Source of the DNA: Anaerobutyricum hallii
GTDB lineage: Bacteria; Bacillota; Clostridia; Lachnospirales; Lachnospiraceae
Length of the DNA stretch: 64,000 bases
Assembly (NCBI RefSeq): GCF_900209925.1
Contig: NZ_LT907978.1
Coordinates: 742,501-806,500, forward strand
Direction of reading: 5' to 3'
Shown: positions 7,327-43,132 of the stretch, piece after piece
How positions within the stretch are numbered: the first letter of the stretch is position 1
How the letters are laid out: every line of letters starts with the position of its first letter
Notes under the pieces: model-generated
What the model saw: only the letters and a program-made list of their open reading frames with translations
What the model was told of the DNA's origin: nothing
The model's database searches: none
Program-made: the position numbers and the translations under genes

Positions 7327-8934
7327 TTATTTATTCTGATGTGCTAATGAAGCAGCAAGGAATCCCTTAAATAATGGGTGTGGTTTATTCGGTCTTGATT
7401 TAAATTCAGGATGTGCCTGTGTTCCGATAAACCAAGGATGTTCAGGAATCTCTACCATTTCAACGATACGTCCGTCAGGTGAGAATCCGGAAAGAAGCAT
7501 TCCGTTTTCCTGGAGTACTTCGCGGTAATCATTATTTACTTCGTAACGATGACGATGTCTTTCTTCAATCTGTTTATGACCATAAAGCTGATATGCTTTG
7601 GAGTGTTCGTCAAGGATACATGGATAAGAACCAAGACGAAGGGTTCCGCCTAAATCAGTGATGCCTTCTTTATCAGGCATGATATGGATGACAGGATTCG
7701 CTGTGTTTTCATTAAATTCATGACTGTGTGCATCTTTTAATCCGAGAACATTACGAGCAAATTCTACGATAGTAAGCTGCATTCCAAGACAAAGTCCAAG
7801 ATACGGGATCTTATGTTCGCGGGCATATTGGATTGAACAGATCATACCTTCGATACCTCTGTCACCAAATCCACCAGGAACGATGATGCCGTCTACGTCA
7901 GAGAAGAAACTATCTACGTTGTAGTTGCTTACCAGTTCGGAATCAACCCACTTGATTTCGACTTCTGCGTTGTTGGCAACTGCTCCATGTTTTAATGCTT
8001 CTACAACACTGATGTAAGCATCGTGGAGAGAAACGTATTTACCAACGAGAGCAACTCTAACTTTATGTTTTGGATGTTTCCAGGCATCAACCATAGAGAT
8101 CCAATCAGATAAATCAGGCTGTGGGCATTCCATATTCAGACATTCACATGCTACGTTAGCAAGTTTTTCTTTTTCCATAGCAAGAGGTAATTCATATAAA
8201 ATATCGACATCAAGATTCTGAATAACACGTTTCTTAGGAACATTACAGAACTGAGCGATTTTTGCTTTAATATCATCATCTAATGGAAGGTCAGAACGAC
8301 AAACAAGAATATCTGGCTGAATTCCCATTCCCTGCAATTCTTTTACACTGGCCTGTGTAGGCTTGGTCTTTAATTCTCCGGAAGCTTTTAAGTAAGGAAT
8401 CAGTGTTACATGAATAAGAATACAGTTCTCATGTCCTACTTCATGCTGGAACTGACGAAGCGCTTCTAAAAATGGCTGACTTTCGATATCACCGGCAGTT
8501 CCACCAATCTCAATAATTGCTACTTCTGTTTCAGAAGCATCTTCATTATGATAAAAACGACTTTTAATTTCATTAGTGACATGAGGAATAACCTGTACGG
8601 TATGTCCGCCGAAATCTCCACGACGTTCTTTGTTAAGGATACTCCAGTATACTTTACCGGTAGTAACATTAGACTGTTTATTTAACTTTTCATCAATGAA
8701 ACGTTCATAATGTCCAAGGTCAAGGTCTGTTTCCGCACCGTCATCGGTAACGAAAACTTCACCGTGCTGTATCGGGTTCATAGTACCTGGATCCATATTG
8801 ATATATGGGTCAAACTTCTGGCTGGTTACTTTATAACCACGTGCTTTTAAAAGACGTCCAAGAGAAGCTGCGGTAATACCCTTTCCTAAACCGGAAACAA
8901 CTCCACCTGTGACGAATACATATTTTACTGGCAT
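7327..8934 (-). CDS. pyrG: CTP synthase
   Basis: A 535-residue CTP synthase, converting UTP, ATP and glutamine to CTP in the cytoplasm. The N-terminal amidoligase part opens with [17 protein letters not shown] (P-loop) and contains the magnesium-binding [11 protein letters not shown] and [12 protein letters not shown] segments. The C-terminal glutamine amidotransferase part has GLCLGMQL with the nucleophilic cysteine and HPEFKSRP with the catalytic histidine and glutamate region. Length matches the family. GGAGG precedes the ATG. It is monocistronic, convergent to the CPBP gene. Confidence 0.98.
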
Positions 8935-9041
8935 GGATAAAATCCTCCTATATTAGATACTGTTTTTGCATTAATTATACCATTATACTATAAGTTAGAC
9001 TCTTTTTCCAGATGAAACATAAAAAATAATAACAAAAAATA

Positions 9042-9875
9042 TTAAATTTGCCGTGCGGCTCTTCGATATTCGTTTGGAGTCATAAATGTATTTTTCTTGA
9101 ATGATTGAGAAAAGTAAGATTGTGAGGAAAAACCGATCATAGATGCAATGGATGCGATTGAATGATTTGTTGTTTCCAGAAGATTTTTACTTTCCTCGAT
9201 TCGTTTTTCATTCAGATAGCTAATCGGAGAACATCCAAAATGCTTTGTAAAAGAGTGTACCAGATAATATTTATTCATTTTGCTTTCTTTGGAAAGAAGA
9301 TCAAGAGTAATGTTTTCAGTAAAATGGTCATCTAAATACTCTTTAACAAAAGTACAATCTCTATTATTTTTTTCTTTTGAAGGATAATCATAATTAATTT
9401 GTGTATTCCGTTGTATTTCTATAAGAATAAGATTCAGATAATGCCGACATGCCTCTTCATAGTATTCTGAACGTTTCGTTACTTCATGAATGAGCATATG
9501 CATGAGATTAAGGCAAATATCAGAAGAAAGAGAAAGTCTTGTAAACGGAGAGATTGCTTCACCGGTATCGTTAGTAAAAAGAAGATTTTCAATACCTAAA
9601 ATAATAAAATCAAGTGGAGGGTGTTGTACATCAACGGAAAACTTTTGTTTATCGGGATTCACCAGTAATAAATCATTTTCTTGAACTGGTAAAAATTGAT
9701 TGCCAAAATAAAATTGTCCGTCACCTTTTTGAATAAAGATGATTTTAGAATATGGATGCCCCGGAAAGATGTTTGAAGCAGGGGATTCGCAATGATACAT
9801 ATTGATTTGTGACAATTTTACAGATGACTTTAAGTTAATATGGTGTTGTTGCAAAGTATATCTTGTTTGCGTCAT
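9042..9875 (-). CDS. AraC-family transcriptional regulator
   Basis: A 277-residue regulator with an N-terminal cupin-like sensor (GDGQFYFGNQFLPVQENDLLLVNP) and a C-terminal double helix-turn-helix. The latter includes LDLLSKESKMNKYYLVHSF and the family signature around IASIASMIGFSSQSYFSQSFK and TPNEYRRA. The start is placed at 9875 because AAAGGAGG lies just upstream; a longer frame to 9953 only translates repeat P1, and its extra residues recur at the other P copies. The target is unknown. It is divergent from the nucleotidyltransferase gene. Confidence 0.87.
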   Translation of the reverse strand: MTQTRYTLQQHHINLKSSVKLSQINMYHCESPASNIFPGHPYSKIIFIQKGDGQFYFGNQFLPVQENDLLLVNPDKQKFSVDVQHPPLDFIILGIENLLFTNDTGEAISPFTRLSLSSDICLNLMHMLIHEVTKRSEYYEEACRHYLNLILIEIQRNTQINYDYPSKEKNNRDCTFVKEYLDDHFTENITLDLLSKESKMNKYYLVHSFTKHFGCSPISYLNEKRIEESKNLLETTNHSIASIASMIGFSSQSYFSQSFKKNTFMTPNEYRRAARQI

Positions 9876-9898
9876 AACTGCCTCCTTTGGATTTGTAT

Positions 9899-9951
9899 GT
9901 ACTCTCGGAGTCTTTCTCACAAAAGCAAGCACAAAAAGATTCCTAGAGTAC
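9899..9951. repeat. Family P palindrome, short copy P1
   Basis: A 53-bp palindrome bounded by GTACTCTCGGA and TCCTAGAGTAC. In the direction of the AraC gene it ends 24 nt before the start codon, with the RBS in between. It is an internally deleted version of P2. The rest of the gap to 10199 is AT-rich and holds nothing else I recognise. Confidence 0.8.
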
Positions 9952-10199
9952 ATGATAGACTGTATTTCTATGGGATACTTGTAGTGGATGATTGTGATAA
10001 AAATATCAAATGCTATTTATTATATTATATTGTCTTTTTTTAGTGTTCTCAACGAAAGAAATATAAATATTTGAGATAAATACATAATAATTATAAAAAT
10101 AGTATAAAATCATCATTGATGTTTTTGATTTTCTATGGGAAAATAGAAAAGAAGATTTCAATAAATAAAGAAGATTTTTTACATAGGGAGGAAGAGAGA

Positions 10200-18337: not shown

Positions 18338-19252
18338 ATGTCTATTATTTCTCAGATAGGGGTTGTCATTTTAATTGCATTTATTGTATTAGTGTTGATT
18401 CGTTCGAATAAGAATCTTAAGAAAGCTTCCGAAGAGGGGGAGAGTTTCGTAGATGAGTGGGCACTGAGACAGGAGAAGAAGGAGGAAATCAAGCAAAAGC
18501 GTGAGGAGAAGAAGTTAGAAGTACAAAAAGAGAAGAAACAAAAGAAAATACAAAAACAGGAGAAACGGAAAGAAAATCTGATTTACGAGAATACAGGTGA
18601 GCAGTTAGAAGATATGCCAATCTATGAGGATACAGAGGAACAAGCAGAAGATAGGACATTCTATGATAATGCAGAAGAACAGCAGGAAGACTGGTCTTTC
18701 TATGACAATATAGAAGAACAGCCAGGAGAAGACCGTCCGGGATATGATGGAGAGAGCCTTCGTGTGAATACAGACTGGTTATATGATTATGAAGAGAAAG
18801 AGAAACAGCGTCAGGAACAGACCAGAGCGGAACAGTATAGGTCTGCCGGTGATAAAGCAGAGGAACAAAGTAGTAAGATCGTTCCGATGAAGAAGCGTCA
18901 GACAACGGGAATCACATTGATGAAGCTTGATGCGAATCATCGGGTGATGGCAAGATACCGCGTAAATCAGATTCCATTTACAATCGGAAGGAGTACCAAT
19001 AATGACCTGGTTCTTGATGATTTGTGTGTGGCAAGAAATCATTGCCGTATCGTGGAAAAAGATGGAAGATACGTTTTGGAAGATGTAGGAACAATGAATA
19101 AGTTATATGTGAATGGGATGATGACAAGTCAGGTTCCTTTATCAGATGGTGTTCGTGTCTATATTGGTAATGAAGAATTTCAGATCGAAGTAGAAGGCAG
19201 AAGAAGCCAGTCTACCAGATTATATAAAAACGTGGAGGGTATTTATGAGTAG
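18338..19252 (+). CDS. Membrane-anchored FHA-domain protein
   Basis: A 304-residue protein. Residues about 6-22 form one membrane helix, 40-85 a Lys/Glu-rich coiled coil, and 85-140 hold four imperfect 13-residue acidic repeats of the form xxYxxxEEQxED. Residues about 200-290 form an FHA domain, with GRSTNNDLVLDD, ARNHCRI and LYVNG as the phosphothreonine-binding loops. FHA domains bind phosphothreonine, so it should read out the kinase encoded downstream. The stop overlaps the RodA start by eight bases. In mycobacteria FHA proteins sit in the same type of cluster with RodA and PbpA. Confidence 0.88.
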   Translation: MSIISQIGVVILIAFIVLVLIRSNKNLKKASEEGESFVDEWALRQEKKEEIKQKREEKKLEVQKEKKQKKIQKQEKRKENLIYENTGEQLEDMPIYEDTEEQAEDRTFYDNAEEQQEDWSFYDNIEEQPGEDRPGYDGESLRVNTDWLYDYEEKEKQRQEQTRAEQYRSAGDKAEEQSSKIVPMKKRQTTGITLMKLDANHRVMARYRVNQIPFTIGRSTNNDLVLDDLCVARNHCRIVEKDGRYVLEDVGTMNKLYVNGMMTSQVPLSDGVRVYIGNEEFQIEVEGRRSQSTRLYKNVEGIYE

Positions 19253-33262: not shown

Positions 33263-33466
33263 TGGCAAAAATGGAAATTCTCCTTTGCCTGTCCTTTCTA
33301 TTCCCTCCCAAAAATCTTCCAACAAGTTTCACGAACTACCAACAAACAGAACCCAGGTCTGTTTTCGTTAATTTGCCAAAAGTTTGTTGAAAAAGTTAAT
33401 AAAAACTGGCACTATTGTCATAAAAAACCGCTGTTTAAGTATGAAAAATAACGTATTTTGCAATAA

Positions 33467-34132
33467 AATACGATAACGATAAATATTAAAAAGAAAAGAG
33501 GAAAATTAAATGGAAAGGATACAGTTGTAGTTGATCCGGCAGTTGCGCCAACAGAAACAACACCGGGTAAGACAGAAGGAGAACACTGTTCTGCATGTAA
33601 TACGGTATTAGTAGCACAGAAGGTAATCCCGGCAACAGGAAAACAGCTTTCTGGAAATGATAAGCCAAGTACTGGAAATACAACACCACAACCACAGCAA
33701 CCAACACAGCCTGCTAAAGTAACAGATAAGAAATCCAAAGCAGTATATAAAGTAAATGGTAATAAGACAGTTGAATATAATAAAGCAAATAAAAAAGCGA
33801 AGAAAGCAACGGTTCCATCAACGATTACTGTAAATGGAGTGAAGTATCAGGTAACATCCATTGCAGCTAAAGCATTTGCCAACAACAAGAAGTTAACAAA
33901 GATTGTCATCCCGGCAAGTGTAAGAAGCATTGGAAAACAGGCATTCAGTGGATGCAAGAATCTTAAGAGTATTACGATTAAGACAACGTATCTTACAAAG
34001 AAATCCATAGGTGCGAAAGCATTTAAAGGAATTCATGCAAAAGCAACGATTAAAGTACCAAAGAAACAGAAGAAAGCATATCAGAAGTTCTTAAAAACAA
34101 AAGGAATTGGAAAAGGTGTGAAAATTAAATAA
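33467..34132 (+). pseudogene. 5'-truncated BspA-like leucine-rich-repeat surface-protein remnant
   Basis: The frame is open from 33467 to the stop at 34132 but has no start: the only ATG after a GAGG RBS (33510) is in another frame and stops after six codons. The peptide contains VVDPAVAPTETTPGKTEG and HCSACNTVLVAQKVIPATG, typical of surface-protein repeats, a Pro/Gln linker, and LRR_5-type units (AFANNKKLTKIVIPASVRSI, AFSGCKNLKSITI). The parent would be a secreted BspA-like protein. It lies between oppositely oriented hairpins A3 and A4. Confidence 0.78.
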
Positions 34133-34692: not shown

Positions 34693-36537
34693 ATGTTTCG
34701 GAAGAAGAATGGGCAGGAGTTTATGGATGAGCTGAACGTGGATTCATCTGTGAATGATAAAGAAGAGAAAAAAGGATTTTTCCACAAGAGGAAGAAGAAA
34801 GATATTAATCTGTATGAAGATGATATGGGATATATCGATGAGGACAGTGATTTTTCAGAAGAAGAATATGATAAAGAATTAGATGAGTTACAGGAAGATG
34901 AGAAGCCAGAAAAAAGGAAGAGAAGATTTTGGCATCGGAAGAAAGAAGATACACTGGAAGAAGAAAATCAGACAGAAGAATTAGCAGAGGAACATCATGA
35001 TGAAGAAGGTTTTCTCAGTGATGAGGATGCGATTATTCTGCAGGAGCCGGAAAAGAAGAAGTTTTCTAAGAAGAAGCTGGCGCTCATCTGTGGTACGGCA
35101 GCAGTCATAGTGATAGCTGTTGTTTTTTTTGTTATTCGGAATATGGGTGGTACAAGCGAAGGAAAGGCGTATGTAGAATCTGTTCGTGAGATTACAGGAC
35201 TTGGAACGGCTGCCGGGGCGAATAATCGTTATACAGGAACGGTTGATGCAGAGAGTTCATGGAAGATTAATTTACAGTCGGATATGTCTGTAGAGAAGCG
35301 TTATGTGAATGTTGGCGATCAGGTGAAAAAGGGAGATAAGCTGTTTAAATATAATACTCAGGAATTAAAGCTTTCAAAAGAAAAGAAAGAGCTGGAACAA
35401 GAGACTTTACAGAATGAGATTAATCAGTTGACAAAAGATATCAGTTCCTATCAGTCTGATTTGAAGTCTGCGAGTGCTACGGAGAAGATTCAGCTTCAGA
35501 CGCAGATTTTAACAGCACAGACTACGATTAAGAAAGATCAGTATACGATCAAGACGAATAAAGAGACGATCAAGACATTAGAGAAGAATATTAAAGATGC
35601 TACAGTAAAGAGTAAGATGAATGGTCTTGTAAAGACGATAAACAGTTCTCTGGAAAGCAGTTCTTCCTCAGGTGATGACAGTTCAGATGATGGTTCAGAT
35701 TCCGGAGATGGAAGTTCAGATGATTCTACATATATGACAATTCTTGCAGTAGGTAACTACCGTATTAAAGGAAAGGTCAGTGAAACGAATGTTAACAGCC
35801 TGAATGAAGGGGATCCGGTTATTGTACGTTCAAGAGTAGATGATTCCCAGACCTGGAAAGGAACGATCAGCAGTATCAAGACAGATGCTACTGCAGATGA
35901 TTCTACCGAGAGCAGCGATGAGATGGCTTATGATGATTCTTCAGATGGCAGTACAGGAGAGACTGCATCGAAATATAATTTCTATGTGAAGCTCGATGAT
36001 GATAATGGCTTAATGATGGGACAGCATGTTCTTGTTGAACAAGATAACGGCCAGGATGAGAAGAAGGACGGTATGTGGCTGCCGGCTGCCTATATTAAGA
36101 AGAGTAACGGTAGGTATTATGTATGGCTGGATTCTCATAATAAGCTGAAGCTTCAGGAGATTACAGTTGGTGAGTATGATGAGAATCTTGATGAGTACGA
36201 AGTGAAGAGTGGACTCAAGACAACAGATTATATTGCATGTGATGACAGTACATTAAAAGAAGGTATGCGGGTTACAAGAGTTGCTCCGGAAGATAGTACT
36301 TCTGACTATGGAGAAGAACAGACAAGCGATGATGCCGAAACATTTGGAGCAGATGATTATGATTCCTATGAAGAAGATACTTCTGATTATGGAGAAGATA
36401 CGTATGACAGTGGTTATGATGAAAGTATAGATGACGGCACAGATGCAGGGGATGATAGTTTCGATACAGGAAGTGACAGTTCAGATGCTGTTGATGATGG
36501 AACAAGTGACAGTGATGTTGCAGACTTTGGAGAATAG
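34693..36537 (+). CDS. HlyD/MacA-type efflux adaptor protein
   Basis: A 614-residue protein. Residues 1-125 are cytosolic and very rich in acidic and Lys/Arg residues, followed by a membrane helix (about 130-152, LALICGTAAVIVIAVVFFVI). Outside come a biotinyl-lipoyl half (VNVGDQVKKGDKLFKYN), an alpha-helical hairpin (about 225-300), a Ser/Asp-rich insert, a beta-barrel segment and a Ser/Asp/Tyr-rich acidic tail of about 90 residues. MacA/HlyD adaptors couple an ABC transporter to export across the envelope. The ATG at 34693 follows AAGGAGG. It heads a four-gene operon. Confidence 0.85.
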   Translation: MFRKKNGQEFMDELNVDSSVNDKEEKKGFFHKRKKKDINLYEDDMGYIDEDSDFSEEEYDKELDELQEDEKPEKRKRRFWHRKKEDTLEEENQTEELAEEHHDEEGFLSDEDAIILQEPEKKKFSKKKLALICGTAAVIVIAVVFFVIRNMGGTSEGKAYVESVREITGLGTAAGANNRYTGTVDAESSWKINLQSDMSVEKRYVNVGDQVKKGDKLFKYNTQELKLSKEKKELEQETLQNEINQLTKDISSYQSDLKSASATEKIQLQTQILTAQTTIKKDQYTIKTNKETIKTLEKNIKDATVKSKMNGLVKTINSSLESSSSSGDDSSDDGSDSGDGSSDDSTYMTILAVGNYRIKGKVSETNVNSLNEGDPVIVRSRVDDSQTWKGTISSIKTDATADDSTESSDEMAYDDSSDGSTGETASKYNFYVKLDDDNGLMMGQHVLVEQDNGQDEKKDGMWLPAAYIKKSNGRYYVWLDSHNKLKLQEITVGEYDENLDEYEVKSGLKTTDYIACDDSTLKEGMRVTRVAPEDSTSDYGEEQTSDDAETFGADDYDSYEEDTSDYGEDTYDSGYDESIDDGTDAGDDSFDTGSDSSDAVDDGTSDSDVADFGE

Positions 36538-36567: not shown

Positions 36568-37350
36568 ATGCTTTTAGAACTAAAACATATTTATAAAAAT
36601 TATTTGCAGGATAAGATTGTCATACCAGTTCTTAAAGATGTGAATATCTCTATTGATGAGGGAGAATATGTGGCAATCATGGGCCCTTCCGGATCAGGAA
36701 AGACAACGTTGATGAATATCATAGGGTGTCTGGATCGGCCGACGAAGGGAGAATTTCTTTTAGAAGGGGAGTCTATTGTAGATTATAATGAAAATCGTCT
36801 CTCGGATCTTCGATTAAACACTTTGGGATTCGTATTCCAGAGTTTTAATCTTCTTCCGAAGCAGACCGCTCTTGATAACGTAGCACTTCCTTTAAGTTAT
36901 GCAGGAATACCGGTGAAGAAAAGAAAAGAGATTGCTTTTCAGGCATTGAAAAGAGTTGGACTGGCGGATAGAGTACATTTCCGTCCAAGTCAGCTTTCTG
37001 GTGGACAGCAGCAGCGTGTGGCGATAGCCAGAGCACTTGTGAATAATCCTAAGATTATTCTTGCTGATGAGCCTACCGGAGCTTTAGACAGCCGTTCCGG
37101 TATTCAGGTAATGAATCTGTTTCAGCAGTTAAATGAAGAAGGTGTTACGATTATTATGATTACGCATGATGCGAATATTGCCAATCATGCGAAAAAAGTA
37201 CTTCATATTTTTGATGGAGAGATTGTAGAAGATAAAGAAAGAAAAGAGAAAGAAAAACAACAGTCCGAAGTGCAGAGTGAGGCAGCAGAAAGTGTTTCAT
37301 CAGAATTAGAAAAAGATTTCGGAGTGAATGCATGGGAAGGAGAGATCTGA
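36568..37350 (+). CDS. MacB/LolD-type ABC transporter ATPase
   Basis: A 260-residue ATPase of the MacB/LolD/FtsE group. Walker A is GPSGSGKTT near residue 39, the Q-loop region is [10 protein letters not shown], the signature LSGGQQQR and Walker [13 protein letters not shown], with the H-loop at ITHD. The last 40 residues are a charged extension. It should drive the permease encoded two genes downstream. It starts 30 nt after the first adaptor, and the second adaptor's TTG start follows its stop by one base. Confidence 0.95.
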
Positions 37351-37351
37351 T

Positions 37352-40300
37352 TTGAAGGGAAAGAAGAAGATACTGCTTGCTGTAGTTTTAGTTCTCGTTA
37401 TGGCAGTTGGAATCACTTCCATTATTGTTATAAGAAAGAGAAATAAAATTGTAGTAAAAGTATTCCCGGTAAGTATGCTGAACAGTTCTGACTGGTTTGA
37501 TACAGATACTTCTCTTACGGGAACGCTTACTTCAGATTTTATACAGGAAGTACATGTTTCCGGTGGACAAAAAGTAAAGAAGATTTATGTCAAAAAAGGT
37601 GATAAAGTTAAAAAAGGCGATGTTCTTTTGAAGTATAATGTTGCGGAAAAAGAACTGGATTTAAAACTTCAGAAGCTTCAGATGCAGTCATCTGAGTTGG
37701 AAATTGCTGAGATGGAGAAGGAATTAAAGAAGCTTAAAAACACAAAGACAGTTGGTTCAATTGATACGGGAAACAGCAGAGTGATGGATGCATCTGTTAA
37801 TCTTTCTGATATAAAGGGAACAAGCCTTCGCTACCTTATGGCAGAGGCGGAAAGGGATGGAACTACCGCAGTGAGCAATTCGAAAGCTACGAATGAGGCA
37901 GATGGAAGCAGCTCAGGTTCTGAAAGTGGAAGTGGCGCCGGCTCCGAGAGTGGTTCAGGAAGTGGAAGTGGCTCAGGCTCCGAAAGTGGTTCTGGAAATG
38001 GAGGCAGCGCTGGCTCCGAGAGTGGTTCAGGAAGTGGAAGTAGCTCAGGCTCCGAGAGTGGTTCAGGAAGTGGAAGTAGCTCAGGCTCCGAAAGTGGTTC
38101 AGGAAGTGGAAGCGGCTCAGGCTCCGAGAGTGGTTCAGGAAGTGGAAGTGGCTCAGGCTCCGAAAGTGGTTCAGGAAGTGGAGGCAGCGCCGGTTCCGAA
38201 GGCGGTTCTGGAAGTGGAGGCAGCTCAGGCTCCGAAGGTGGTTCTGGAGAAGAATCAGGAAAGGATGATGCGACACCAAAAGAGAATATTAATAGTCTTG
38301 AGGATGCATCGGGAAAAGGAACAAAAGACGATAAATACATCTTTAATTTGAAAAAAGGTGGAAAAATCAGTGGTTCAGTTATTAAACAATTAAAAGATAA
38401 AGGTGAGAATGGTTATGCAGTAGTTAAAGAATATGATGGAGATGATACTAGTACATATACCTTGACACCAGATAAATTATCAAAGATTAATGTAAAAGAA
38501 GGTAAAATGTATTCTGTTGAAGAATTGAAAAATGGTGGAGATGAAGATATTGTAGGTAATATTTCATCAGAAGAAAACTATATCAAAGGTTCAGGAACAG
38601 AAGAAGATCCATATATATATAATTTAAATATTAATGGCTCTGTTGTAGGTAGTGCAATTCGAAATTTACAAAAAGATGGAAAATATGCAAAGTTTATTGA
38701 GTATGAAAATGAAAAGCAGACAGGAAAAACTTATACATTAACTCCAGACACATTATTTAGAACAGACATTACATCTGAAGAAAATTATACAATATCTTCG
38801 TTAAATGAATTGACTAAGGTATCTTATATAGAATTGCCGAAAGCAATAACAAGTATAGATGATAAGGATGAATATGATAGTTCAGATGAAAAATATGTAT
38901 ATTATTTGAGTGATAATGGAGTTATTAAAGGTTCTGTAATTAAAGAGTTAATAAAAAATAAAAATAATGCAGAGTTTATTTCCTATGCTTCTGAAAAAGA
39001 TTACAAAGCAGGAAATAAGCAGTTTACATTATCTATAAATGCAGATACTAAGTTTAAGAATATTTTATTAGATTCAACGCAATACGCTATTTCAGATTTA
39101 ATAGATAATGTAAAGAAAGAGGATTCAGCGGCTACAACAACTGAGAATAAAGGAAATACTGTTCCAACAACAAATAAGACACCGACGCCGGCGGCAGATA
39201 AGGAAATCAAGTTTAAACAGAATCGAAAGAAAGTAAAAGCGGGTAATGGCTATCTCTTTTCTGTAGTGTCTAAAGATGGAAGCTGGGGAAATGGAGAGGA
39301 TGACCAGAGTAAGGTTACATGGACTTTATCAAATAATATTTCAAAGTATACAAGTATTGAGAAGACGAAGTCTGGTGTTTGGTTATATGTAGATGAAGGA
39401 GAACCGTCTTCTTCTATTACACTTACTGCGCAGGTTAAGAATGTAAAAGGTATTTCTAAAACTAAGATATCAAGAACGTTGGTTGTGAAAGAAGCGGATA
39501 CCAGCGGTGGAGATAATACTGGCGGAGACGGCGGTGATGATGGAGATGGCGGTTCTGGCATTGACGATGGCAGTGGAGATAATGACGGTGATGATGGCAA
39601 TAATTATACTGCAGCAGAGTTAAGGGAAGCAATTGCCGAAAAAGAAGATGAAATTTCTGAAGCCAAACAAGATCTTCATGAAGCGCAGATTAACTACAAT
39701 GAAGCAAAAGCAGAAGTAGATAAAGCGACAGTTAAGGCAAAGATTGCCGGTACGGTTACTACTTCATGCGATAAAGGAACGGTTCCTACAGATGGTTCGG
39801 CGGCTATCGTAGTTAAGGCAGCAGATGGAATGTATGTTAAGACTTCGATTAGCGAGATGGAACTTAGCAATATAAAGGTTGGTGGAACGATCAAATGTGT
39901 ATCTAGTGATACAGGAGATGAGTATACCGCAGAAGTAAAGGAAATTTCGGATTTCCCTACCGGAGACAGTAGTAATGATGGAGGAAGTTCCAATCCAAAT
40001 AGTTCTTATTATCCGGTCATTGGCTTTATTAAAGATGCAGATGGTTTGAGTCCGGGTGGTTCTGTCGAAGTTTCTTATAGTTCAAAGTCTATGGGAACAG
40101 CGAATGATAATGCAATCTATATTCAGAAAGCATATATCCGCACAGAAGACAAAAAGAATTATGTTTATATTCGTGATAAAAAGACAAAGCGTCTGAAGAA
40201 GCAGTATGTCAAAGTTGGAAAGACTATGAATGGCCAGTATGTGGAAATTATATCCGGACTGACAGATGAAGATAACATTGCCTTCCCTTATGGAAAGAAC

Positions 40301-40357
40301 TTAAGAGAAGGAGTTAAAACGAAGATTTCCGAAGATGACAGCGAAATGATTTATTAA
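37352..40357 (+). CDS. Giant efflux adaptor with Ser/Gly-rich and repeat-domain insert
   Basis: A 1001-residue HlyD-type adaptor, about twice the usual length. A membrane helix at about 5-25 and the lipoyl half (YVKKGDKVKKGDVLLKYN) are followed by helix one of the hairpin. A Ser/Gly/Glu tract (about 185-302), three related units of about 90 residues (about 320-590), and an Ig-like segment (FKQNRKKVKAGNGYLFSV, about 610-715) are inserted, before an Asp/Gly linker and helix two (LREAIAEKEDEISEAKQDL). The second lipoyl half and a barrel finish it. The TTG at 37352 is chosen by AAGGAGAG nine bases upstream; an ATG at 37328 overlaps the ATPase gene. Confidence 0.83.
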   Translation: MKGKKKILLAVVLVLVMAVGITSIIVIRKRNKIVVKVFPVSMLNSSDWFDTDTSLTGTLTSDFIQEVHVSGGQKVKKIYVKKGDKVKKGDVLLKYNVAEKELDLKLQKLQMQSSELEIAEMEKELKKLKNTKTVGSIDTGNSRVMDASVNLSDIKGTSLRYLMAEAERDGTTAVSNSKATNEADGSSSGSESGSGAGSESGSGSGSGSGSESGSGNGGSAGSESGSGSGSSSGSESGSGSGSSSGSESGSGSGSGSGSESGSGSGSGSGSESGSGSGGSAGSEGGSGSGGSSGSEGGSGEESGKDDATPKENINSLEDASGKGTKDDKYIFNLKKGGKISGSVIKQLKDKGENGYAVVKEYDGDDTSTYTLTPDKLSKINVKEGKMYSVEELKNGGDEDIVGNISSEENYIKGSGTEEDPYIYNLNINGSVVGSAIRNLQKDGKYAKFIEYENEKQTGKTYTLTPDTLFRTDITSEENYTISSLNELTKVSYIELPKAITSIDDKDEYDSSDEKYVYYLSDNGVIKGSVIKELIKNKNNAEFISYASEKDYKAGNKQFTLSINADTKFKNILLDSTQYAISDLIDNVKKEDSAATTTENKGNTVPTTNKTPTPAADKEIKFKQNRKKVKAGNGYLFSVVSKDGSWGNGEDDQSKVTWTLSNNISKYTSIEKTKSGVWLYVDEGEPSSSITLTAQVKNVKGISKTKISRTLVVKEADTSGGDNTGGDGGDDGDGGSGIDDGSGDNDGDDGNNYTAAELREAIAEKEDEISEAKQDLHEAQINYNEAKAEVDKATVKAKIAGTVTTSCDKGTVPTDGSAAIVVKAADGMYVKTSISEMELSNIKVGGTIKCVSSDTGDEYTAEVKEISDFPTGDSSNDGGSSNPNSSYYPVIGFIKDADGLSPGGSVEVSYSSKSMGTANDNAIYIQKAYIRTEDKKNYVYIRDKKTKRLKKQYVKVGKTMNGQYVEIISGLTDEDNIAFPYGKNLREGVKTKISEDDSEMIY
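37906..38259 (+). repeat. 36-bp tandem repeat encoding the Ser/Gly/Glu tract
   Basis: About nine imperfect units of 36 bp, each encoding SGSESGSGSGSG-like sequence, form an in-frame minisatellite. Unit number can be expected to vary between strains. The GC content is clearly above that of the repeat-domain region which follows. Confidence 0.9.
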
Positions 40358-40368
40358 GGAGGAGAACG

Positions 40369-41625
40369 ATGCTTGAAAATATAAGATTATCTTTTCAGGG
40401 TGTATGGAGTCACAGACTGCGTTCTTTCCTGACGATGCTGGGCATCATTATCGGTATTGCGGCAATTATTGCCATTGTATCAACAATTAAAGGAACGAAT
40501 GAACAGATTAAAAAGAATCTGATCGGTTCTGGTACCAATACAACAACAGTACAGTTAACAGAAAGTGGAAACTATCCAGCAGAAATGGAATATGGAATTC
40601 CGAAGGGAATTCCTGTTCTTGATGATGCCATGCGTGAACAGTTAGCTGAGCTTTCTCATGTAAAAGATGCTTCCCTTTATATGTCACGTACACAGGTAGA
40701 TTACATTTACTATAATTCAACAGTGCTTTCCGGTGGGCAGTTGATCGGGGCAGATTCTCATTATCTTGGAACCTGTGGTTATGTAATGAAAAAAGGAAGA
40801 GGCTTTACGGAGAGCGATTATGAGAAGTATCGTAAAGTGGCAGTAGTAGACAGTGTAGCAGCCGACTCTCTTTTTGGAAATGAGAATCCGGTAGGAAAGA
40901 CCATTGATATAAAAGGAGAGCCATTTATTGTTGTTGGTGTCATTGAAGAGTCTACCGCCTTCAGCCCGGTAATTAATTCTGTAGAGGATTATTATACTTA
41001 TGTATATAACGACGGAAGTGCGAGTGGTATTGTTGTAATTCCTGATGTGGACTGGAATATTGTTCAGCAGTATGATGAGCCACAGAATGCAAAGCTGCTG
41101 GCAGATTCTACAGATAATATGACATCTGTTGGAAAAGCAGCACAGACCTTATTAAACGAAACGGTAACAAATAAAGATATCAAATATCGTGCGGCAAATA
41201 TGAATGAGACCGCAGAAGAAAGTCAGCAGGTAAGCGCAACGACAAATAAACAGTTAATATGGATCGCAAGTATTTCATTATTAGTTGGTGGTATCGGTGT
41301 TATGAATATTATGCTTGTATCCGTAACAGAGCGTACAAGAGAAATCGGTTTGAAAAAGGCAATCGGTGCGAGAAAGAATCGAATACTGGCACAGTTCTTA
41401 ACAGAAGCAGCAGTACTGACCAGTCTTGGAGGTATCATTGGTACGATTACCGGTATTGCATTAGCAGAAGTTATCGGAAAGATATCAAATGTTCCAATTG
41501 CAATCAGTATACCGGCAGTTATTCTGGCAATTGCATTTTCTACAATAATCGGAGTAGTATTTGGATTACTTCCGGCAGTAAAAGCAGCTAATTTAGATCC
41601 AATCGTTGCATTACGCCATGAATAG
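40369..41625 (+). CDS. MacB/FtsX-type ABC transporter permease
   Basis: A 418-residue permease. An N-terminal membrane helix (SFLTMLGIIIGIAAIIAIV) is followed by a large extracellular MacB periplasmic-core-like domain (about 45-285) and three C-terminal helices (IASISLLVGGIGVMNIML, AVLTSLGGIIGTITGIAL, VILAIAFSTIIGVVFGLLP). The TERTREIGLKKAIGARKNRIL segment is the conserved FtsX cytosolic loop, and the tail AANLDPIVALRHE is typical of MacB. GGAGG precedes the ATG. It is the last operon gene. Confidence 0.94.
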   Translation: MLENIRLSFQGVWSHRLRSFLTMLGIIIGIAAIIAIVSTIKGTNEQIKKNLIGSGTNTTTVQLTESGNYPAEMEYGIPKGIPVLDDAMREQLAELSHVKDASLYMSRTQVDYIYYNSTVLSGGQLIGADSHYLGTCGYVMKKGRGFTESDYEKYRKVAVVDSVAADSLFGNENPVGKTIDIKGEPFIVVGVIEESTAFSPVINSVEDYYTYVYNDGSASGIVVIPDVDWNIVQQYDEPQNAKLLADSTDNMTSVGKAAQTLLNETVTNKDIKYRAANMNETAEESQQVSATTNKQLIWIASISLLVGGIGVMNIMLVSVTERTREIGLKKAIGARKNRILAQFLTEAAVLTSLGGIIGTITGIALAEVIGKISNVPIAISIPAVILAIAFSTIIGVVFGLLPAVKAANLDPIVALRHE

Positions 41626-41785: not shown

Positions 41786-43132
41786 ATGGGTAAATATTTT
41801 GGAACAGATGGTTTCCGCGGAGAAGCAAATGTAAATCTAACAGTAGAGCACGCATATCAGGTAGGTCGTTTTCTTGGATGGTATTATGGTAAAGATAAAG
41901 AAGAGAAATGCAAAGTTGTAATTGGTAAAGATACACGTCGTTCAAGCTACATGTTTGAATATTCTTTAGTAGCAGGACTTACAGCTTCAGGAGCAGATGT
42001 ATATTTACTGCATGTAACAACAACACCGAGCGTTTCTTATGTAGTAAGAACAGAAGATTTTGACTGTGGTATCATGATCTCTGCAAGCCATAATCCATAC
42101 TATGATAATGGAATTAAACTCATTAATTCTAAAGGCGAGAAGATGGATGAGGAAACGATCCTTAAAGTGGAAGATTATATTGATGGTAAGTTTGAAATTC
42201 CGATGGCAGTACGTGATCAGATTGGATGTACAGTTGATTATTCCGCAGGAAGAAATCGTTACATCGGTTATTTGATCTCTCTTGCAACACGTTCCTATAA
42301 GAATATGAAAGTAGGGTTGGACTGTGCTAATGGAAGTTCCTGGATGATCGCAAAGAGTGTTTTTGACGCATTAGGAGCAAAGACCTATGTGATCAATGCA
42401 CAGCCAGACGGACTGAATATTAATATGAATGCCGGTTCTACACATATCGAAGTGCTTCAGAAGTTTGTAAAAGAGAATCAGCTTGATGTGGGATTCGCCT
42501 TCGATGGGGATGCAGACCGTTGTATCGCTGTTGATGAGAATGGAAGCGTTGTAGATGGAGACCTCATTTTGTATGTTTACGGCAGATATCTTAAAGAAAA
42601 AGGTGAACTTCGTAATAATACAGTCGTAACAACAATTATGTCAAACTTTGGATTGTATAAAGCATTTGACGAACTTGGTGTTGATTATGAAAAGACACAG
42701 GTTGGAGATAAATATGTTTACGAAAATATGGTACAGAATGGACATCGTATCGGCGGTGAACAGTCAGGACATATTATTTTCAGTAAATATGCAACAACCG
42801 GAGACGGAATCCTTACAGCCATTAAGATGATGGAAGTAATGTTAGAGAAGAAGCAGTCTTTAGCAACATTGACATCACCGGTTCGTATTTATCCGCAGGT
42901 ACTTAAGAATGTACGTGTGAAGAGTAAACCGGAGGCACAGAATGATGCTGACGTACAGGCAGCAGTAAAGCAGGTTGCAGAAACACTTGGGGCGACAGGA
43001 AGAATTCTTGTTCGTGAAAGTGGTACAGAGCCAGTGATACGTGTTATGGTAGAAGCGGAAACAAAGGAAGAATGTGAAAAGTATGTTGATTCGGTAATTG
43101 AAGTTATCGAGAAAAAAGGTCATTGTGCATAA
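41786..43132 (+). CDS. glmM: Phosphoglucosamine mutase
   Basis: A 448-residue phosphohexomutase that converts glucosamine-6-phosphate to glucosamine-1-phosphate for UDP-GlcNAc and peptidoglycan. It opens with YFGTDGFRGEAN, has the active-site phosphoserine loop ISASHNPYYDNG, the metal site FDGDADRC, the sugar loop GGEQSGH and the phosphate loop RESGTEPVIRVM. Length matches GlmM. GGAGAAG precedes the ATG. It shares the cell-wall theme with murF downstream but a terminator hairpin separates them. Confidence 0.95.
   Translation: MGKYFGTDGFRGEANVNLTVEHAYQVGRFLGWYYGKDKEEKCKVVIGKDTRRSSYMFEYSLVAGLTASGADVYLLHVTTTPSVSYVVRTEDFDCGIMISASHNPYYDNGIKLINSKGEKMDEETILKVEDYIDGKFEIPMAVRDQIGCTVDYSAGRNRYIGYLISLATRSYKNMKVGLDCANGSSWMIAKSVFDALGAKTYVINAQPDGLNINMNAGSTHIEVLQKFVKENQLDVGFAFDGDADRCIAVDENGSVVDGDLILYVYGRYLKEKGELRNNTVVTTIMSNFGLYKAFDELGVDYEKTQVGDKYVYENMVQNGHRIGGEQSGHIIFSKYATTGDGILTAIKMMEVMLEKKQSLATLTSPVRIYPQVLKNVRVKSKPEAQNDADVQAAVKQVAETLGATGRILVRESGTEPVIRVMVEAETKEECEKYVDSVIEVIEKKGHCA

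Follow-up and report, generated by a model that had tools for sequence, protein, structure and literature searches.

Why would an adaptor protein of a single-membrane bacterium carry about 620 residues between the two helices of its hairpin? In diderm bacteria the tip of the adaptor hairpin docks to TolC, and an outer-membrane channel of the TolC family is not expected in a monoderm member of the Lachnospiraceae. The long hairpins of Gram-positive adaptors, which have no TolC to dock, are an acknowledged puzzle (PMC4446572). The adaptor considered here is encoded in a 64 kb stretch of DNA, which we refer to as the window, and its relatives allow the place, the history and the probable use of the insert to be taken up in turn.

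A MacAB-like operon with two adaptors

The gene in question, adaptor B, stands third in a four-gene MacAB-like operon that runs from adaptor A through an ABC ATPase and adaptor B to a MacB-type permease:

34693..36537, + strand: adaptor A, a MacA-like membrane-fusion protein with a plain hairpin (AAGGAGG before ATG 34693; TIGR01730, E 6e-21)
36568..37350, + strand: MacB-like ABC ATPase subunit (PF00005, E 1e-34; MacB profile NF007826, E 4e-83, over the N-terminal part)
37352..40357, + strand: adaptor B, a membrane-fusion protein with a ~620-residue insert between the hairpin helices (intact ORF, 1001 aa, TTG start)
40369..41625, + strand: MacB-type permease, MacB_PCD plus FtsX (PF12704, E 6e-32; PF02687, E 1e-21; MacB profile, E 3e-50)

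With both an ABC ATPase and a MacB_PCD/FtsX permease, the operon encodes a MacB-type ABC exporter. The nearest relative that shares it is Anaerobutyricum hallii DSM 3353, of the same genus, whose permease is 95% identical. We prefer TTG 37352 as the start of adaptor B because a good Shine-Dalgarno sequence, AAGGAGAG, lies just 5' of it and because the orthologue in A. hallii DSM 3353 uses the corresponding TTG; the alternative ATG at 37328 overlaps the ATPase gene upstream.

The hairpin of adaptor A is uninterrupted and gives no match to the profile of the domain repeated in the insert of adaptor B, and the C-terminal tail of the protein is acidic. At its other end (34693-35085), adaptor A has a charged, acidic extension of ~130 residues that precedes the TM helix and is predicted to be cytoplasmic. 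Similarly long A proteins are found in several congeners, and outside the genus most A proteins are shorter.

Two further features of the window can be recorded in passing. Between a hydrogenase gene and adaptor A lies a fragment (window ~33460-34132) that resembles BspA/leucine-rich-repeat surface proteins; it lacks an ATG start, is preceded closely by stop codons and is probably a gene remnant. Further away, a protein encoded at 18338-19252 has imperfect acidic tandem repeats followed by what looks, by eye, like an FHA-type C-terminal domain.

Architecture of adaptor B

From its N-terminus, adaptor B comprises a TM helix, the first lipoyl half, helix 1, the insert, helix 2, the second lipoyl half and the barrel. 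From helix 1 onwards the parts are placed as follows:

37643..37738, + strand: hairpin helix 1, residues 98-129 (AF2 helix, pLDDT ~85-90; hydrophobic periodicity; covariation with helix 2)
37748..38284, + strand: N-side disordered linker with the Ser/Gly/Glu tract, residues 133-311 (AF2 pLDDT <50 over 134-305)
38306..38539, + strand: hairpin-tip domain copy 1, residues 319-396 (profile E 1e-21; AF2 pLDDT ~85-95)
38582..38815, + strand: hairpin-tip domain copy 2, residues 411-488 (profile E 1e-24)
38867..39112, + strand: hairpin-tip domain copy 3, residues 506-587 (profile E 2e-24)
39197..39475, + strand: Ig-like (BIG2-like) domain, residues ~616-708 (all-beta AF2 segment, pLDDT ~80)
39488..39607, + strand: C-side disordered Gly/Asp-rich linker, residues 713-752 (AF2 pLDDT <50 over 710-751)
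39611..39724, + strand: hairpin helix 2, residues 754-791 (AF2 helix; the C-terminal RND_mfp match begins at 765)
39725..40354, + strand: second lipoyl half, beta-barrel and membrane-proximal region (TIGR01730 over 765-990; Foldseek match to MacA)

The assignment of this protein as an adaptor rests on profile and fold together. The RND_mfp profile TIGR01730 matches its core in two stretches (E 2e-24) with 86.2 bits, slightly short of the curated cut-off of 94.9 bits, and the top Foldseek match of its model is MacA (5nik, E 2.7e-11). MacA 5nik is also the best match of the model of a single-domain homologue from E. ramulus (E 7.5e-16 over 480 columns), and for both models the global superposition on 5nik is poor.

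The original prediction had described the insert as a Ser/Gly/Glu tract followed by three repeat domains and an Ig-like domain, and profile search, TRF and AF2 taken together return this order; its size, put at ~530 residues, comes to ~620 when measured (residues 130-753). The DNA of the Ser/Gly/Glu tract contains a 36/108-bp tandem repeat at 37916-38248 (TRF score 505), and the three repeats are alpha/beta domains of ~80-84 residues each. Pfam does not recognise the Ig-like domain, and a Foldseek search against a viral structure library gave weak matches only (best E ~1e-3), several of them BIG2-annotated proteins. Among recognised families, none that binds or anchors to the wall was found in the insert of this genome. 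The fact that the same architecture occurs in congeners and across the Lachnospiraceae indicates that it did not arise by chance.

The helices flanking the insert

The original prediction would lose its footing if the helices on either side of the insert did not form one hairpin, and four lines of evidence favour a single hairpin. First, without the insert the two helices of adaptor B total ~79 residues, compared to ~84 in the uninterrupted hairpin of adaptor A. Second, in relatives the N-terminal flank ends at about position 93 of the RND_mfp profile and the C-terminal flank begins at about position 97, so that the two are nearly adjacent. Third, among 68 B sequences (effective number ~39), 63% of the top 30 helix 1-helix 2 covariation pairs lie inside an antiparallel band that takes up 36% of the area, an enrichment matched by 4 of 500 shuffles for the top 30 pairs and by 0 of 500 for the top 50. 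The band was derived from the helix ends, but at a point when the leading pairs of the first test were already known, and the shuffles ignore phylogeny. The most enriched register is i+j = 885-887, with 889 expected from the helix ends. A simpler test, which averages covariation along the anti-diagonals, did not reach significance (79 of 200 shuffles).

Fourth, two B homologues (L090 and L099) have only a Pro/acidic linker of 38-43 residues at the position of the insert. The AF2 models of full adaptor B and of the E. ramulus homologue show confident single domains and adaptor halves that are not confidently packed (pTM 0.30 and 0.37), and hence neither support nor contradict a hairpin. Taken from sequence, the behaviour of helices 98-129 and 754-791 as one antiparallel hairpin is supported.

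Spread of the operon and pairing of the adaptors

A search for similar inserts in the Lachnospiraceae, which had been proposed as a check, found the same adaptor architecture again in congeners and across the family. Where contigs permit, the four-gene operon is present in the Anaerobutyricum genomes examined, and the order A, ATPase, B, permease is kept in congeners and in ~35 further loci. Outside the genus it is found in other Lachnospiraceae and in a small number of loci that bear the label Oscillospiraceae, with E. ramulus, Murimonas, Robinsoniella, Marvinbryantia, Blautia and Porcincola among the carriers. In a tree of the adaptor core the 23 A rows group together with support 100/100, as do the 23 B rows with 99/98; since each is monophyletic, A and B are an old pair that has been inherited together. 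The gap between the helices of B ranges from 38 to 865 aa with a median of 286, being at least 119 aa in 66 of 68 proteins and 38-43 aa in two, and the hairpin turn of adaptor A, on which the original prediction is silent, measures 5-20 aa in 50 of 52.

The gene that directly follows the operon in most Anaerobutyricum loci is glmM (41786-43132 in the window); judged on the available sequence, L037, L038 and L045/L063 are exceptions, and loci outside the genus do not show this arrangement.

These lengths bear on the conduit that had been offered, beside a stalk and a substrate-binding module, as a use of the insert; as a conduit or stalk of this kind, six inserts would build a continuous channel extension through the wall. 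The insert would be placed at the mouth of the tube for this, and its total mass is sufficient. The domains are flanked on both sides by mostly disordered linkers of ~180 and ~40 residues, however, the tip domain is present in one to four copies within the genus, the total length of 38-865 residues gives no fixed height, and there is no helical or barrel-forming element. Disordered linkers, variable copy number and missing helices together argue against a longer conduit, and adaptor A, probably part of the same ring, has no insert at all. We regard a channel extension as very improbable. Of the other uses offered, a stalk or tether and a ligand-binding module are both candidates.

The tip domain

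The repeated domain of ~84 residues, which we call the tip domain, could not be matched credibly to any entry of Pfam, NCBIfam or the PDB sequences; a PDB profile search with the repeat gave as its best hit a PNPase fragment at E 0.0056, which we rejected as not credible. As far as these three collections go, the repeats represent a new domain family. In its own genome the domain occurs in three copies, all inside adaptor B. It was found in 33 of 200 Lachnospiraceae genomes, and in all 29 loci that were read it lies inside the adaptor B ORF, with both adaptor halves visible in 28 and the remaining one, L129, cut by the edge of the locus. Among 398 genomes of the phylum only the own genome has it. 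In the genomes surveyed (200 Lachnospiraceae, 398 phylum) the tip domain is thus confined to the B hairpin. Elsewhere in the own genome, an unrelated and apparently secreted ORF (L003, G000:C1 3290167-3290667) contains a Ser/Gly/Thr-rich tract, which was set aside because its likeness to the adaptor tract is one of low complexity only.

Not every adaptor B has the domain. Outside the genus it is present in 24 of 31 B proteins, partially in some (profile E <=0.01), and in the L070 protein its motif is visible by eye and not by profile. In the B proteins of L067, L075, L086 and L095, other, largely helical modules take its place. Together with L090 and L099, which lack an insert, these four indicate that the tip domain is dispensable. 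The inserts of L067 and L075, at 661 and 865 residues, consist mostly of helical modules and are without the common tip domain.

Turnover and exchange of the insert

The insert also turns over rapidly, and in modules. Extra segments were recognised by eye in congeners, namely helical repeats in L034, L037, L038 and L050 and a beta-type module in L051, and none of the five gave a family match. Modules of the FctA pilin and InlB types are typical of exposed surface proteins, and both kinds turn up in relatives. L098 (ORF 7354-10086, residues 354-454) carries an FctA/Spy0128-like isopeptide pilin domain inside the adaptor hairpin (E 1.5e-12, above the cut-off), and the insert of L067 contains an InlB B-repeat at E 9e-5, just below the cut-off, so that a confident surface-type module is found in one relative only. 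Surface-protein modules in these inserts fit a tip that faces outwards.

Such modules might suggest that transport is not the main task of the complex, and that the motion of a MacB/FtsX-type ATPase is coupled through the B tips to a wall or extracellular partner, as in FtsEX-PcsB, or that the adaptor serves to anchor adhesin-like modules. FtsX/MacB members can act on the wall without transport (PMC5768738), the FctA and InlB-type modules of relatives would be at home in such a device, and so would the glmM synteny in most of the genus. Yet this synteny ends at the genus boundary, and the conserved full adaptor core with a MacA-like permease points to a tube-forming exporter, which makes this role, in our estimate, quite unlikely.

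The repeats are under purifying selection and evolve faster than the core (pN 0.14-0.26, pS 0.70-0.82 in congener pairs), being the fastest-evolving folded part of adaptor B. A neutral or decaying insertion, or an artefact of gene fusion, could be suspected from the low-complexity tract and the odd base composition in this genome. It is contradicted by the selection on the repeats, by a frame that is open in nearly all congeners and broken in one MAG (G006), and by the retention of the domain across Lachnospiraceae genera, and we consider it hardly credible.

The odd composition is concentrated in the repeat block. At 38306-39112 GC3 is 0.13, the lowest of 366 stretches, each 240 codons long, taken from the 64 kb to which this comparison is limited; outside the adaptor B gene the minimum is 0.22 and the mean 0.33 (sd 0.04). 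The repeats of A. hallii have a GC3 of 0.29, and those of congeners are without the anomaly. Identity to A. hallii is 42% in the repeat block, compared to 84-90% in the core, 77% in the Ig domain and 95% in the permease, and congener pairs at a similar core distance retain 60-74% repeat identity. The lowest GC3 and the 42% identity against 84-90% in the core indicate that the repeat block was probably swapped in by a recent exchange from a low-GC source. A codon-identity test of replacement against divergence in place is near saturation and leans to replacement, and is only suggestive.

Rapid change of this kind would also be expected if the tip domains captured a substrate, binding a toxic peptide or drug, whether exported or external, and holding it at the tube mouth, with repeat turnover tracking changing substrates. 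The closest characterised Gram-positive relatives, YknWXYZ and Spr0693-0695, act on antimicrobial peptides (PMC8277102, PMC5768738), and it is the fastest-evolving folded part that looks exchanged here. Against this, no ligand-binding family was recognised in the insert, no biosynthetic or immunity genes adjoin the operon (its next gene in most congeners is glmM), and acidic Ser/Gly linkers with pilin and Ig modules suit display more than a defined pocket. Dedicated substrate capture is therefore unlikely in our view.

Proposed working of the pump

The reading we prefer is that of a two-adaptor MacAB-like exporter in which the hairpin tips of B carry flexible, exchangeable modules that face the wall or the outside and would bind a ligand or a wall component; on balance we consider it probable. 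On this view the operon equips a single-membrane bacterium with an ABC exporter of the mechanotransmission type that works with a pair of adaptors. The hairpin of A is ordinary; in B, flexible linkers with one to four tip domains stand in place of the tip loop, and in Anaerobutyricum the Ig-like domain comes after these domains.

MacB-type exporters use a hexameric adaptor tube, and the modelled tube of Spr0693 rises ~154 A from the membrane, which brings its apex roughly to the inner wall zone (PMC5768738). By homology we infer that the insert is located at the apex of such a tube. A ring that mixes A and B is likely given the two-adaptor precedents of TriABC and the fused dimeric DSY0927, and A and B most likely share one hexameric tube above the permease with the tips of B as a crown. 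From this crown the modules would extend into the peptidoglycan or through it, presumably in contact with the wall, where their most likely partners are a component of the wall or a ligand, either extracellular or exported. Bound modules might anchor the mouth of the tube or select substrate rather than lengthen the channel. Of the projection into or across the wall that was originally proposed, a tip at the wall zone is thus retained by homology to MacA and Spr0693 (PMC5768738), and the surface modules of relatives fit it.

Since the surveyed genomes show the tip domain at no other place, it seems that these cells use the hairpin tip for a new purpose. We tentatively raise the broader possibility, to which we give rather less than even weight, that monoderm Lachnospiraceae turned the TolC-docking tip into a docking site for the wall or the outside, with a private domain family that takes the part of the "outer partner" in a two-adaptor pump and is swapped as one unit among lineages. 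A paired adaptor with a private tip domain, lineage-specific copy number and module swaps amounts to a widespread natural experiment in common gut bacteria, butyrate producers among them, and the insert offers a concrete handle on the role of the hairpin tip in single-membrane cells.

Comparison with known systems

The kinds of adaptor and pump seen here are already known. In the open-licence papers searched we found no account of the private domain family, of its restriction to the hairpin tip of one adaptor of the pair or of its modular turnover, and none of any adaptor with domains inserted in the hairpin.

MacA and MacAB-TolC of E. coli (PDB 5nik) share the adaptor core of TM helix, barrel, split lipoyl domain and hairpin, as well as a MacB-type ATPase and permease. 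Here, by contrast, no TolC partner is expected and the TolC-docking tip is replaced by ~620 residues, there are two adaptors, and ATPase and permease are separate chains. A split ATPase and permease are also found in Spr0693-0694-0695 of Streptococcus pneumoniae (PDB 5xu0), a Gram-positive MacAB-like pump whose hexameric hairpin tube reaches the wall zone, but which has one adaptor with a disordered stretch of ~22 residues as its hairpin turn (PMC5768738). YknWXYZ of Bacillus is likewise a Gram-positive four-gene MacB-like exporter with a hairpin-bearing adaptor; its fourth component, however, is the membrane protein YknW and not a second adaptor, and no tip insert is described for it in the literature searched. 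Two adaptor units per pump are known from TriABC-OpmH of Pseudomonas and from the fused dimeric DSY0927 of Desulfitobacterium (PMC13328181, PMC4446572). A hairpin insert is reported for neither in the literature searched, and TriABC differs further in being an RND pump with a TolC-like channel.
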